The notes under the pieces were generated by a model. It was not told where the DNA came from. It worked only from the letters and a program-made list of their open reading frames with translations, and made no database searches. Source: Halorubrum aethiopicum (lineage in GTDB: Archaea; Halobacteriota; Halobacteria; Halobacteriales; Haloferacaceae). From it: a stretch of DNA of 64,000 nt. Shown piece after piece: positions 50,550 through 59,211 of the stretch (its first letter is position 1; the number at the start of each line of letters is the position of its first letter). The translations under genes and the position numbers were made by a program. The DNA lies in the NCBI RefSeq assembly GCF_001542905.1, contig NZ_LOAJ01000001.1, positions 2,976,001 to 3,040,000 on the forward strand. The letters are read 5' to 3'.

Positions 50550-51005
50550 CTACGCGTAGCGTTCGAGTTCCGGCCGGTCGAGGTCCTCGAGGACCTCGCT
50601 CGCGACCTCCGAGAGGAACGCCTCGCCCTCGTCGGAGACGCGGCGACCCTCGCCGGCGGCGGTAGTGACGAGACCCTCCTCCTCGAGCGCCTGGAGCGAC
50701 GCGCGGATGAGCTTGCGGGAGCCGCTCTCGTGCTCGCCGGGGCGAACGACGTAGCGGTTGGAGCCGCGCTTCTTCGAGCCGTACTCGGTGGCGAGCCGCT
50801 CGATGCCGATGGGCTCGTTCTGTGCGACCTTCCGGAGGAGACTCGCCGAGCGGACGTACCAGAAGTCGTCCTGCTCGGGCGGGAGCTCCTTGCCCGCGCC
50901 GGTCTTCGTGAACTCCACCCAGTCGGGCTCGTCGATCCGCTCCTCGAGTCGCGCCGCGACCGCCTCGATGAGGGCGTCCGCCGGCACGTCGTAGATGGTT
51001 ACCAT
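50550..51005 (-). CDS. rps19e: 30S ribosomal protein S19e
   Basis: 151 residues, MVTIYDVPADALIEAVAARL onward. The archaeal/eukaryotic S19e core is evident in KELPPEQDDFWYVRSASLLRK, IGIERLATEYGSKKRGSNRY, PGEHESGSRKLIRASLQAL and GRRVSDEGEAFLSEVA. It is a small-subunit protein needed for 40S maturation in eukaryotes. ATG 51005 is confirmed by tttaaac at 51031-51037, a TATA box at leaderless spacing, and by homologue starts. Note the weak overall basicity for a halophile. Confidence 0.96.
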   Translation of the reverse strand: MVTIYDVPADALIEAVAARLEERIDEPDWVEFTKTGAGKELPPEQDDFWYVRSASLLRKVAQNEPIGIERLATEYGSKKRGSNRYVVRPGEHESGSRKLIRASLQALEEEGLVTTAAGEGRRVSDEGEAFLSEVASEVLEDLDRPELERYA

Positions 51006-51151
51006 TAGGGGAGAATTCAGCCCAAGGTCGTTTAAACCCATCGTATTCGAGAGCCGTCGTGTGAGCCGTTTTCACGGAGAACGGCGGTCGAGCGGCCGGC
51101 GCGTGGCGGACGAGCGGCGGGCGAACGACGGGCGAACGGCGGGTCGATCCG

Positions 51152-52495
51152 CTACTCGACGTACTCGTACTTCCGCTCGTTCATCCGACCCCAGCCGGTG
51201 AAGACGAACTCGCCCTCGGGGGCGGTGAACTCCTCGATCTCGCGCTCGAGGTCCTTGTCGTACTCGTGGATGTCGTGGACGTCCTCGTACTCCTCCCACG
51301 AGAGGTCGTACCGGCTCGCGAGCTGGTCGTCGATGTCGAGCGCCTCGATCTCCGAGCGCCACCCCTCGCGAACCGTCTCGGCGTGGATCTCGGCCTGCGC
51401 GCCGGAGCCGTAGGAGGCGACGAGCAGCGTCTCGTCGACGAAGTCGCGGTCGCGCTCGAGCGCGTCGCGCAGGGCGCTCACGCGGGCGACGTGAACCGAG
51501 GAGGTGTACCAGTTGCCGACCTCCCGAGAGAGCCCGAGCGTCGGCTCGACGGCGTCGTCGTACCACGTCCGGTACTGGTCCGTCGTCTTCAGCTCGTCCA
51601 TGTAGTCGCGGATCGCCTCCTCGTAGGCCTCGCGGTCCTCGTACTCGTCCTCGCGCGGCTGGCGGCCGATCTCGTCGGCGAGGTCGTCCTCGTACTCCGT
51701 GTCCCGGATCACGTGGCGGTACGCGAGCAGGGCGGCCTTCCGGACCATCCCCGGGAACGGCGTGTGGAACGGGGCGTACGCGAAGTCGTCGAGCTCGATC
51801 TTGCCCGCGACCGACTCGTAGTCCTCGAGCGCCTCGCGCATCCGCGAGAGGTACACCTGCATCGAGCGCTTGCCGTCGACGCTCGGGAACTGCTGGTTCG
51901 GCTTCAAGAAGTCCGTCTCGTCCTTCGAGCCGTACCCCTGATCCGTCGAGAGCTCGACGAGGTTCGGCTCCTCGGCGATGAGCATCGCGACTGCGCCCGC
52001 GCCCTGGGTCGCCTCGCCGGGGTCGCCGCGGGCGTACAGCGCGGTGTCGGTCGCGATCACGAGCGCCGCGCGGCCGCGGTTCCGCCCCGCCCGGATCCAG
52101 TTGTACGCGTCGTCGACCGCCTGCGTGCCGGCGACGCAGGCGAACTTGCGCTCGCCCTTGTTGGCGTGGACGAAGTCGCCGTCGTACACCTTCTCCAGAC
52201 AGCCCGCGATGTACGTCGAGACGGGCTTGGAGTGGTCGAACGCCGACTCCGTGGCGACGTCGATCCGCCCGATGTCGTCGGGCTCGAGACCCTTGCGGTC
52301 CATCAGGCGCTTGGCCGCGTTCGCGCCCATGGTGACGATGTCCTCGTAGACGTCCGGGAACGAGGAGTTCGTGAGCCCCAGCCCCTTCGTGTACTTCTCC
52401 GGGTCGTCGCCCTTCTGCGGGGCGAACGTGCCCGGTAAGTCGAGTTTGAGCTTTCCGGATCGGATCTCGATGGCGTCGATCCCCACTGCGGTCAT
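51152..52495 (-). CDS. hmgB: Hydroxymethylglutaryl-CoA synthase
   Basis: 447 residues. Archaeal/bacterial HMGS catalytic set: Glu83 (ATESAFDHSKP), Cys120 (KFACVAGTQ) and His244 (APFHTPFPGM). Long acidic insertions in the C-terminal half are common in haloarchaea. It condenses acetyl-CoA and acetoacetyl-CoA to HMG-CoA, the first committed step of the mevalonate route to archaeal lipid chains and carotenoids. A TATA-like cataag lies 20-30 bases before ATG 52495. It is followed by the S19e gene on the same strand, 146 bases downstream. Confidence 0.95.
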   Translation of the reverse strand: MTAVGIDAIEIRSGKLKLDLPGTFAPQKGDDPEKYTKGLGLTNSSFPDVYEDIVTMGANAAKRLMDRKGLEPDDIGRIDVATESAFDHSKPVSTYIAGCLEKVYDGDFVHANKGERKFACVAGTQAVDDAYNWIRAGRNRGRAALVIATDTALYARGDPGEATQGAGAVAMLIAEEPNLVELSTDQGYGSKDETDFLKPNQQFPSVDGKRSMQVYLSRMREALEDYESVAGKIELDDFAYAPFHTPFPGMVRKAALLAYRHVIRDTEYEDDLADEIGRQPREDEYEDREAYEEAIRDYMDELKTTDQYRTWYDDAVEPTLGLSREVGNWYTSSVHVARVSALRDALERDRDFVDETLLVASYGSGAQAEIHAETVREGWRSEIEALDIDDQLASRYDLSWEEYEDVHDIHEYDKDLEREIEEFTAPEGEFVFTGWGRMNERKYEYVE

Positions 52496-52616
52496 GGACG
52501 GTCGTTCACGAGGTGGGCTTATGGGTGTGTCGATAGGGTGTTACGTCGATCGTGGAAATAGATCTCTACGACTTCCGAATGTGATAGGAGATGTACTGAA
52601 TTACTGTATTTTGAGA

Positions 52617-55214
52617 TTATGTTATATTTAGAGATAATTCCGATCCGTCAGAGAATTCAAGCGTGACAATAATATCGGCACTAGAACTGTCTGAAACAAA
52701 GTTCTCATCAATACCTAGACTACCACTGCCGGAGAACTCGCGAAGTTCGACAGTGGCCTGTCCATTGATCGTGGCGGGTAGACTCTGTCCATCAAATGAG
52801 CTTCCAGTATCTGAGAATGTACGACCCGACATATCATTCTGTGTCTCAACAGAGAACGCATCAATCTCAACGGATTGATCGGCACTAATGTCAAATTCAA
52901 CAGCCCTACCACCGCCAGGGATGTTGGATTGTCCTACAGTACCATCAACTCCCGAAACTTGGCTCGCCATCGTCGGGTCGATCGTCACTCCCTGAACTGC
53001 CGTGTCGTCCTCAGAACGAACGGTAATATCATCAGTCTCAGCGTCACCGGGTGTCGTCGACCATGTGAGCGTACCTGACGTAGTTTCGCCTCCATCGAGG
53101 GTGACCTCGATCGAGTCGATGACTTGGTCATCGAAGTCAAGTAGTTCGATCGTCTGTGTGTCGGTTTCATCGCCGGTGTTTTCCACCGTGTAGTCGACGT
53201 TGAGGTCCTCACCTTCGGTGATCGGTTCGTTGGTGGACGTGATACCGACCTCGAACTGCGCCGGTGCGTTCACCGTCGCAGTGCGGGTGTCGAAGTCGTC
53301 ATCGCTTTCGGCTCTGACATCGACATCAGGAGAGTCACCCTGTTCGGTCTGGTAGGTGAACGATTCAGTTACCTGTGCGCCGCTTGCGAGAGTCACTCCC
53401 CTCACGTTGATCTCCTCGCCGTCGACGAGGAATCGAATGTTCTGTGTCCCCGTCGATCCGCCGGTGTTCTCTACCGTGACTTCGACGTCAAGATTTTCTC
53501 CCTCAGTGACCGGTGCGTTGGTGGACGTGATGTCGACCGAGAACGTCGGACTAACCGTACCAACCGTCTCAATGTCGTTAGCGAGTTCGGTCGTCATGGA
53601 ACCGTCTTGATACAGTGTCGCATTGATCGTGTCGCCGTCACTGATGCCACCGATATCAGCAGCATCAACGGTTGTACTTCCGTCACCAACGGTATTCTCG
53701 TATGTGCCGCCGGTATCTTCATTCTCGACGACGAGATATCCCGAATCGAGGTTCGTAAGCTCGTGATCGACGGTGAAGTTGCTATCGCTCTCGAAGATTT
53801 CATCTTGGAGATCGACGGTTCCTCCGATGACCGTAACCTCGGTGCGATCAACGTCGTCACCGGCCGAAGCGTACACGTCGAACGATTCATTTTGCTGAGC
53901 GCTCCCCGCTTCAAACGTGACGTTGTCGGTTCCGTCGTGAACGGACTGGTTCCATTTCGACAATGAACCGTTGGGAGATTGTGGCGTGATCGAGTAATCG
54001 ATCGTCGCGTTCGCGATCGGAGTTCCGCTTCGATCGGACACGCTCACGTTCAGATCTCGCTCGTCGTTCTCCACCACGGTCGCGGAGTCCAAGTCCCACT
54101 CCGTGTTGAACGTTCGATTCACGCTGCCGTTGCCGCCCGCCTCGGTGATCGTGAACGGAACGGATTCGTAGGACTCGCTACCCCCGTTGATCGTCGCGCT
54201 GTAGTCGTCGGCAGCGTCCGGTTCGAAGAAGGCCCGTCCGTCAGCGTTCGTATTCTCGGTGGTACCGTCAAGGGATACCTCGGCACCCACGACGGGATTG
54301 TTGTACTTGTCTCGTACTTCGACACCGACGCTCTCTCCGACAGTTCCATTGCCCGTAACCGGGACGACGTACGCCGGCTCGGTCGTCCCGCCGGCGTCGA
54401 CTGCGACCTTCGAGAGCCCAAGCCGATACGTCTCGCTGCCGTTGAGGGCGATCCGGACCGTGCCACCGTCCTCGGTGACGGTCGCGTTCGGAAGTTCCGC
54501 GGCCCACCGGCCCCGGAGCGCGGTGGCGTTGTCGACGGCCGTCGGAAGAACGATCTCGACGTCGCCGCCGTCACCCGTTATCGGGACCGTCCTGCTGCTC
54601 CGCGAGATCGGCTCCGGATCGACGCTTTGAGACTCCACACCGGTCTCCGAGATGGCTCCGGTCAGGGCTGTTATCGCGATCCGATCGCCACGAACGACCG
54701 TCTGATCCGACCGGAGGAGGACGGCGTCGTCGAACTCCGCGGCCACGACGGAGTGTTCGTACAGCAGTCGCGGAGCGCCCCGATACTCGTTGTAGTCCGG
54801 CGTGTACCGGATGGACGTCGTGTTGAATCGCGGATCGGTTTGCGTCCAGAACTCACGGACGTTCTCGTGGGCTCCCGACCCGACCGTGGCGTTCACCTGA
54901 ATCGCCTCTTCTCCCGTGGTCTGAAGCGATCCGGACGCCGGCGGCGGATTCAGAAAGAACGTCCGCTGGGGATATCGGGTTCCGAGCTGTATCGGCTCGG
55001 ATTGTACCGACCCCGTCGATCCGGCCTGAAGGATCGCGTTCCGCAGGTCCAGGAACTCGCCTTCGACCTGCTGGCTGTGTTCGAACTCGATCTCCTCGTT
55101 TTCCGCCGGCACGAACTGGACCTGATACGTCGCCATCGCGAGGATCAGGAAGCCGAAGAGGATCACCGTCCCCACCACGACCGACTGGCCCCGACGGTCG
55201 TGTCTGAAACTCAT
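52617..55214 (-). CDS. Large pilin-type surface protein with CARDB-like repeats; mosaic base composition
   Basis: 865 residues. The N-terminus has a prepilin-like signal: RHDRRGQSVVVGTVILFGFL then ILAMATYQVQF, i.e. charged residues, then one long hydrophobic helix. A large beta-rich outer part contains GVEVRDKYNNPVVGAEVSLDG (carboxypeptidase-regulatory-like), an N-rich middle and two CARDB-like repeats (VDITSTNAPVTEGENLDVEV..., VGITSTNEPITEGEDLNVDY...). The C-terminal third ends FSDGSELSLNIT. GC is 77% at 54481-54540 but 52% at 53641-53700 and 45% at 52681-52740 (hand counts), so the 3' half looks imported. ATG 55214 begins the signal. Confidence 0.85.
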   Translation of the reverse strand: MSFRHDRRGQSVVVGTVILFGFLILAMATYQVQFVPAENEEIEFEHSQQVEGEFLDLRNAILQAGSTGSVQSEPIQLGTRYPQRTFFLNPPPASGSLQTTGEEAIQVNATVGSGAHENVREFWTQTDPRFNTTSIRYTPDYNEYRGAPRLLYEHSVVAAEFDDAVLLRSDQTVVRGDRIAITALTGAISETGVESQSVDPEPISRSSRTVPITGDGGDVEIVLPTAVDNATALRGRWAAELPNATVTEDGGTVRIALNGSETYRLGLSKVAVDAGGTTEPAYVVPVTGNGTVGESVGVEVRDKYNNPVVGAEVSLDGTTENTNADGRAFFEPDAADDYSATINGGSESYESVPFTITEAGGNGSVNRTFNTEWDLDSATVVENDERDLNVSVSDRSGTPIANATIDYSITPQSPNGSLSKWNQSVHDGTDNVTFEAGSAQQNESFDVYASAGDDVDRTEVTVIGGTVDLQDEIFESDSNFTVDHELTNLDSGYLVVENEDTGGTYENTVGDGSTTVDAADIGGISDGDTINATLYQDGSMTTELANDIETVGTVSPTFSVDITSTNAPVTEGENLDVEVTVENTGGSTGTQNIRFLVDGEEINVRGVTLASGAQVTESFTYQTEQGDSPDVDVRAESDDDFDTRTATVNAPAQFEVGITSTNEPITEGEDLNVDYTVENTGDETDTQTIELLDFDDQVIDSIEVTLDGGETTSGTLTWSTTPGDAETDDITVRSEDDTAVQGVTIDPTMASQVSGVDGTVGQSNIPGGGRAVEFDISADQSVEIDAFSVETQNDMSGRTFSDTGSSFDGQSLPATINGQATVELREFSGSGSLGIDENFVSDSSSADIIVTLEFSDGSELSLNIT

Positions 55215-58761: not shown

Positions 58762-59211
58762 TCACTCCTCCTCGGCTTTGAACTCCACGAGCGTCAGCTC
58801 CCGGTCGAGCGCGCAGTAGTCGTGCGGCGGGTCCCCGAGCACTCGCTCGATCCGGCGCTCCTCGTCGAAGTCCGCCCCGTCGGGGACGCAGTACTCGTGG
58901 CTCGGGCACTCGGTGTGGGGACACGGGCCCGCGAGCGACGCCCGGCTGCCGGCGTACGCGCCCTTCGAGGGGACGTTCGCGGGGACCGGCGCGGGCTCGA
59001 CCTCGACCGCGCGGACGCCGGCGTCGTGGACGGCGCAGTCGAGCGTCTGGGCGTTCTCGCGCACGTCCGTGATCCGGTACCGCGTCCCGACGGAGAGGTT
59101 GAGACACTGGCTCCGGTAGGGACAGCCCGCGCAGTCGGGCGACTCCCCCTCGTAGACGAACTCGCGGCCGGCGTCCGCGAGCCGCGAGCCGATGAGCGTG
59201 ACCGTGGGCAT
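58762..59211 (-). CDS. UPF0179-family cysteine-rich protein
   Basis: 149 residues with conserved cysteines: CAGCPYRSQCLNL, DCAVHD, CPHTECPSHEYCVPDG and DYCALD. This is the archaeal UPF0179 set (MPTVTLIGSRLADAGREFVY start). The nine-plus Cys pattern suggests an Fe-S or zinc protein of unknown role. It converges on the nucleoside phosphorylase and is divergent from TmcA. Confidence 0.88.
   Translation of the reverse strand: MPTVTLIGSRLADAGREFVYEGESPDCAGCPYRSQCLNLSVGTRYRITDVRENAQTLDCAVHDAGVRAVEVEPAPVPANVPSKGAYAGSRASLAGPCPHTECPSHEYCVPDGADFDEERRIERVLGDPPHDYCALDRELTLVEFKAEEE

Follow-up and report, generated by a model that had tools for sequence, protein, structure and literature searches.

A fixed-address, hypervariable surface-protein gene of Halorubrum whose distal part is probably exchanged between species

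The window analysed here, a stretch of 64,000 nucleotides from Halorubrum aethiopicum, contains a gene for a large pilin-like protein directly upstream of the gene for HMG-CoA synthase (HMGS), from which it is separated by 121 bp of AT-rich intergenic DNA (52496-52616, 46% GC). Ribosomal protein S19e and a HEAT-repeat protein are encoded by further neighbors (Table 1). HMG-CoA synthase was found in 17 genomes from other haloarchaeal families, and in 9 of them the gene is, judged by coordinates, likewise upstream of it. We compared 31 Halorubrum orthologs, including the window gene, taking one genome per species and each pair as one comparison. Pairwise DNA identity across the genus was 0.93 in codons 1-20 and 0.5-0.75 in the middle of the gene, reached 0.79 at codons 299-308, and was down to 0.19 in codons 401-420; for DNA upstream of HMGS-70 the value was ~0.27, the random level. 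The conserved start of the gene spans about -40 to codon 60, and the island at codons 299-308 may provide left homology for exchange. Many Halorubrum species (L035-L040, L045, L062, L063) carry a second pilin-like gene with high GC3 between the variable gene and HMG-CoA synthase, which is missing at the window locus; the one tested, that of Boch-26 (L045), had Pilin_N, CarboxypepD_reg and CARDB matches.

Table 1. Features of the surface-protein locus and its constant flank, in window positions.
Feature	Positions	Strand	Basis or remark
Pilin-like Ig-domain surface-protein gene, 865 aa	52617..55214	(-)	ORF; 30 other Halorubrum genomes have an ortholog upstream of HMG-CoA synthase
HMG-CoA synthase (HMGS), constant right flank	51152..52495	(-)	NF041302
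Ribosomal protein S19e, constant right flank	50550..51041	(-)	PF01090, E 1.9e-43
Conserved 62-bp HMG-CoA synthase upstream region	52496..52557	(-)	Right border of variable block in all relatives compared
Conserved 5' anchor, codons 1-60: class III signal and long helix	55035..55214	(-)	RRGQS in 31/31 orthologs; 77-93% pairwise nt identity
Conserved island, codons 299-308, RDKYNNPV motif	54291..54320	(-)	79% pairwise nt identity vs 52% for codons 101-420
Putatively exchanged block, codon 344 to 62 bp before HMG-CoA synthase	52558..54183	(-)	No counterpart in Hrr. halodurans
Head domain, about residues 73-271, alpha/beta	54402..54998	(-)	Predicted; pLDDT 84, pTM 0.78 (N-terminal 298-residue model)
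CARDB domain 1, residues 556-641	53290..53549	(-)	Pfam PF07705, E 1.2e-11 for protein, best stretch
CARDB domain 2, about residues 655-750	52966..53250	(-)	Second CARDB stretch; 82.8% nt with Hrr. sp. 48-1-W (L031)
AT-rich tail domain, residues 756-865	52620..52949	(-)	GC4 0.32

The N-terminus has the features of an archaeal prepilin signal under the published -1/-2 rule (PMC4371748): cleavage is expected after G9, between DRRG and QSVVVG (DRRG followed by QSVVVGTVILFGFLI), with a charged residue at -2, G/A/S at -1 and a hydrophobic segment after the cleavage site. The other Halorubrum orthologs have this DRRG/QSVVVG start too, or one very close to it. Pfam Pilin_N (PF07790) did not match the 865-aa protein among matches examined up to E=1. 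Modeling of the N-terminal 298 residues predicted a 60-residue helix (residues 8-67) followed by the head. The head (pLDDT about 90) had no convincing PDB match, Foldseek returning nothing at E<=0.001, and is possibly an undescribed fold. The stretch beyond the head gave weak Big_1/CarboxypepD-like matches, followed by two CARDB domains, the second a tandem copy of the first (direct repeat D1), and then the tail. The full-length model, a chain of beta domains, had low confidence (pLDDT 61), so the Ig-bead chains (titin, complement) returned for it by Foldseek were taken to indicate domain type only. Searches by sequence found no convincing solved relative, and the 865-aa protein contains no cysteine. 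From this anatomy (signal, helix and domain chain) we infer that the protein is located at the cell surface.

Bactofilin-like repeat stretches (PF04519), unusual for an exported pilin-like protein, end the distal parts at L033 and L049, and similar distal repeats were seen by eye at L061, L066 and L067. Very large open frames of 2000-3900 aa with many CARDB copies (G018:C27, G010:C28 and G014:C78) contain copies up to 47-48% identical to the window CARDB stretch, and are a possible reservoir of modules.

The locus was brought to attention by a first-pass annotation that had reported, from GC counted by hand, a composition break within the gene. The hand counts of 77%, 52% and 45% were exact on recount (76.7% at 54481-54540, 51.7% at 53641-53700 and 45.0% at 52681-52740). 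The lowest-GC 1600-bp stretch in the window is 52436-54035 (52.6% against a median of 70.2%; the next-lowest region has 65%), and 300-bp windows at or below 46% GC all start at about 52451-52601; the intergenic DNA downstream of the gene is AT-rich, as had been noted. GC at four-fold degenerate sites was 0.80 in codons 1-343, 0.65 in codons 344-755 and 0.32 in codons 756-865; the composition shift is thus more than an amino-acid effect. GC3 change points were located at codon 706 (reached by 0 of 5000 permutations) and at about codon 393 (p = 0.0004). The break is therefore real, although it consists of two steps rather than one; the reading frame occupies 52617-55214, and 52496-52616 is intergenic. 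For GC3 in the window at large only the median was used as a control, since over-extended ORF starts blur it.

A composition shift of this kind turned out to be common at the locus. Distal GC3 was lower than N-terminal GC3 in 28 of 31 orthologs (Wilcoxon p = 2e-8), and N-terminal GC3 was lower than that of HMG-CoA synthase in 30/30. The drop was significant in 21 of the 31 orthologs and a significant rise in none, and GC3 also declines along the gene in several other families. In cibi and aquaticum the drop comes directly after codon 50-58, a pattern suggestive of replacement of almost the entire gene. Because the GC3-poor orthologs include ones with unrelated 3' ends, as well as Hrr. halodurans, the genome used for comparison below, composition is not diagnostic of a swap, as the first-pass annotation had assumed, and we rejected it as proof of foreign origin. 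Low GC3 is a trait of the DNA circulating at this locus and no evidence for the window's own swap.

Alignment provided the evidence that composition could not. The nearest available genome to the window was that of Hrr. halodurans Cb34 (G014), with an HMG-CoA synthase 98.3% identical. The two genomes aligned without interruption, at 90% identity, from window position 59000 to 54184 (codon 344); the alignment resumed, at 96%, at 52557 (HMGS-62, that is, 62 bp before HMG-CoA synthase), leaving 52558-54183 unmatched. The N-termini of the two proteins were 98% identical, and the C-termini gave no blastp match. The homology break at codon 344 precedes the first composition step by ~50 codons. As the first ~200 bp of HMG-CoA synthase hitchhike, this gene is an imperfect sole species marker, and a 40-kb comparison (window 24001-64000) was therefore added beside it. 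In these 40 kb, 52558-54183 was the largest stretch lacking a Hrr. halodurans counterpart and the sole one inside a long gene; the others were ~820 bp (between two contigs) or smaller. These alignments, with a matching N-terminus and matching flanks on both sides of a wholly different 3' half, support the earlier proposal that recombination had replaced the 3' half. The exchange at codon 344 and HMGS-62 may have occurred in either genome, the window's or that of Hrr. halodurans.

Alternative 3' ends, which the first-pass annotation had suggested looking for among strains, were present across the genus, between species: the 31 orthologs comprised 17 C-terminal types (at a bit-score fraction of 0.4). 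Similarity of HMG-CoA synthase was related neither to N-terminal similarity (Spearman 0.08) nor to C-terminal similarity (0.12); the C-terminal types are uncoupled from the flanking gene. Hrr. kocurii and lipolyticum have N-termini 92% identical and C-termini without a match, the breaks lying at codon 321 and HMGS-58. The reverse combination was also found. Boch-26 has a C-module in common with lipolyticum and JWXQ-INN 858 (54-62%) while identity of the N-termini is just 64%. In halophilum and 'Halobellus captivus' ZY8 the C-termini are 49.5% identical over 426 residues and the N-termini 54%. The last genome (L061/L095) groups with Halorubrum in a genome search and has an HMG-CoA synthase 95% identical to that of Halorubrum; its record is probably misnamed or mixed. 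Hrr. alkaliphilum and kocurii are 99-100% identical over a ~2.6 kb tract that starts at about codon 10-17, ends at about HMGS+185 and has flanks of ~84% identity. This tract is a recent inter-species replacement of nearly the whole gene, with both ends in conserved anchors.

A homologue of the whole window 3' end was found in only 1 of the 51 other genomes of the genus. The gene of Hrr. sp. 48-1-W (genome G025, locus L031) has a window-type 3' end, with a tail 62% identical in amino acids and one CARDB domain fewer. Both halves of the window gene match this one homologue, which has the same composition shift, an outcome that the first-pass annotation had counted against replacement. Only 48-1-W gave this outcome; the nearest genome, Hrr. 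halodurans, did not. Behind the 48-1-W gene is a second copy of the HMGS upstream region together with HMGS codons 1-61. A GCGGCC microhomology connects this stub with a halodurans-type 3' remnant (86.8% over 152 bp), which is followed by an antisense MazE-type/PIN pair and then by the true HMG-CoA synthase start. On the simplest reading, the incoming DNA used homology for recombination at its left side and microhomology at its right, and the old 3' end was displaced in the process. The case rests on a short-read assembly, in which the contigs overlap by exactly 54 nt; 26915 + 100 + 13231 equals 40246, the figure in the NODE_33 name, indicating that the assembler had joined both contigs. The two HMGS-start copies differ by substitutions and an indel. 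No second displaced 3' remnant was found in the gaps of other loci.

The genes for a MazE-type antitoxin and a PIN-domain toxin in 48-1-W (L031:1-1750) lie between the surface-protein gene and HMG-CoA synthase. In the corresponding gap of Hrr. halodurans (L032) there is a degenerate fragment of this MazE-type gene (55% over 49 aa), and a related MazE-type/PIN pair is found upstream of the gene in G069.

We considered whether the distal homology could have been lost by ordinary fast divergence, without any exchange of blocks. The whole gene is indeed more divergent than its neighbors, identity falls from codon 60 on across the genus, and by eye the tails of several types seem similar. Fast divergence cannot, however, give 98% identical N-termini and undetectable C-terminal similarity within flanks of 96-98%, nor a tract of 99-100% identity in 84% flanks, nor the displaced 48-1-W remnant next to its HMGS stub. 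It is largely refuted by how sharply homology ends at codon 344 and HMGS-62, and we regard it as highly improbable. Import of the AT-rich 3' part from an AT-rich donor outside the genus is suggested by the fall in GC4 from 0.80 in the N-terminus to 0.32 in the tail. Against this, most orthologs with differing 3' ends show the same drop, as do several other families, the sole sequence closely matching the 3' end as a whole comes from Halorubrum, and there was no phage or viral-contig match; such a donor seems unlikely. A viral origin was rejected, as neither a tblastn search of 50,697 phage records nor two scans of IMG/VR returned a match.

The first-pass annotation had likened the gene to phase-variable or phage-selected pili. 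Phase or antigenic variation within a genome, by silent cassettes, an invertase or slippage as in Neisseria pilE/pilS, has in its favor the conserved N-terminus with a variable C-terminus and the displaced remnant adjoining the 48-1-W gene. The window genome contains a single match to the 3' part and hence no silent copy, the locus has no inverted repeats beyond chance-like matches and no slippage or simple-sequence tracts, and the 48-1-W remnant is the sole one found in the locus gaps; the proposal is extremely improbable and we abandoned it. A polymorphic-toxin-like system of the Rhs/CDI kind, with exchangeable effector tips and displaced orphan tips, would account for an old 3' end behind an active gene, and the vapBC-like PIN and MazE-type genes in the same gap of 48-1-W could then be related to it. 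The distal parts nevertheless consist of CARDB, Big_1, bactofilin or unassigned beta domains, with no toxin domain, there is no constant immunity gene (the window gap is only 121 bp), and the PIN/MazE pair is antisense and present in few loci, which makes this reading very unlikely.

We consider it probable that this is a fixed-address, hypervariable surface-protein locus whose distal part, or nearly whole gene, is exchanged between Halorubrum species via conserved anchors. In-situ exchange between species, with its break points in conserved anchors, is the part of this reading that the sequence comparisons show directly. A pilin-type N-terminus, with its prepilin-peptidase signal, 60-residue helix and head, would carry a chain of Ig-like distal domains. 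The gene is set between conserved DNA anchors: on one side its 5' end, from about -40 to codon 60, and on the other the HMGS upstream region with the 5' end of HMGS; weaker islands, codons 299-308 among them, are further anchors. DNA from other Halorubrum species would recombine through these anchors and replace either the distal part or almost the entire gene. In some cases there would be homology on one side only; the other side would be joined at a microhomology, and the old 3' end would stay in place behind the gene. Cell-to-cell transfer of DNA followed by ordinary homologous recombination is the presumed mechanism. Selection may favor diversity of the distal domains through specific contacts with mating partners, aggregation, surfaces or viruses.

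The closest parallel is the VARTIG module of Thermococcales (arCOG07710), for which a counterpart was sought in other archaea, including among CARDB proteins, and none reported; its authors were unable to map recombination sites, as close genomes were lacking (PMC8416519). Both are large archaeal surface proteins with CARDB/Ig-like domains, a conserved N-terminal and a hypervariable C-terminal part, and in both the C-terminal part is exchanged in situ between species beside a constant neighbor gene, with no integrase reported nearby (PMC8416519). Unlike VARTIG, the Halorubrum protein has a pilin-type N-terminus, the D[ND]NxxxG[GD] tail motif is found in the last 40 residues of 0/31 Halorubrum orthologs, and the conserved cysteines of VARTIG are missing from the window protein. 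VARTIG adjoins the RNase III-like arCOG05836, whereas the Halorubrum gene adjoins HMG-CoA synthase, S19e and the HEAT-repeat protein. An array of shorter C-terminal homologues downstream, as in VARTIG, is also missing from the window genome; in 8 of the 31 orthologs a downstream gene has a CARDB match (35-47% identity). By its tail motif, cysteines, gene array and neighbor, the Halorubrum locus is not a member of VARTIG, yet it works like it.

Other systems share single aspects. The cell-wall and S-layer islands of Haloquadratum walsbyi are likewise haloarchaeal surface genes diversified by homologous recombination, and their exchange, according to the authors, probably limits virus infection (PMC4535781); they span tens of kb and many genes, whereas in Halorubrum one gene is affected, its address is constant and the break points fall within it. 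UpsA of Sulfolobales is also a pilin-type protein with a variable region that differs by species, and has experimental evidence of partner recognition (PMC7064770), whereas the Halorubrum protein, with a putative recognition role, is large and has a chain of distal domains. Exchange of 3' ends and a displaced old 3' end (in one Halorubrum species) recall Rhs/CDI polymorphic toxins, a likeness drawn from general knowledge and parallels in PMC8416519, but no toxin or immunity gene was found at the Halorubrum locus. Neisseria pilE/pilS resembles it in the conserved pilin N-terminus, variable C-terminal part and recombination, and differs in the silent copies that the window genome lacks. We found no earlier description of the Halorubrum locus in a literature search of incomplete coverage.

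More tentatively, and with considerable doubt, the locus may be a haloarchaeal counterpart of VARTIG: an old, position-fixed locus that acquires its distal Ig-like modules from other species when DNA is exchanged and serves recognition of self and non-self or of mating partners. A comparable archaeal system had been described only in the heat-loving Thermococcales, whereas in Halorubrum the break points can be read. The genus offers ~50 genomes of different species, many cultured strains and one recent inter-species transfer, and genetics is established in the related Haloferax. How archaeal surface recognition proteins diversify, and whether this diversification tracks mating or virus resistance, thereby becomes testable in haloarchaea that can be grown.
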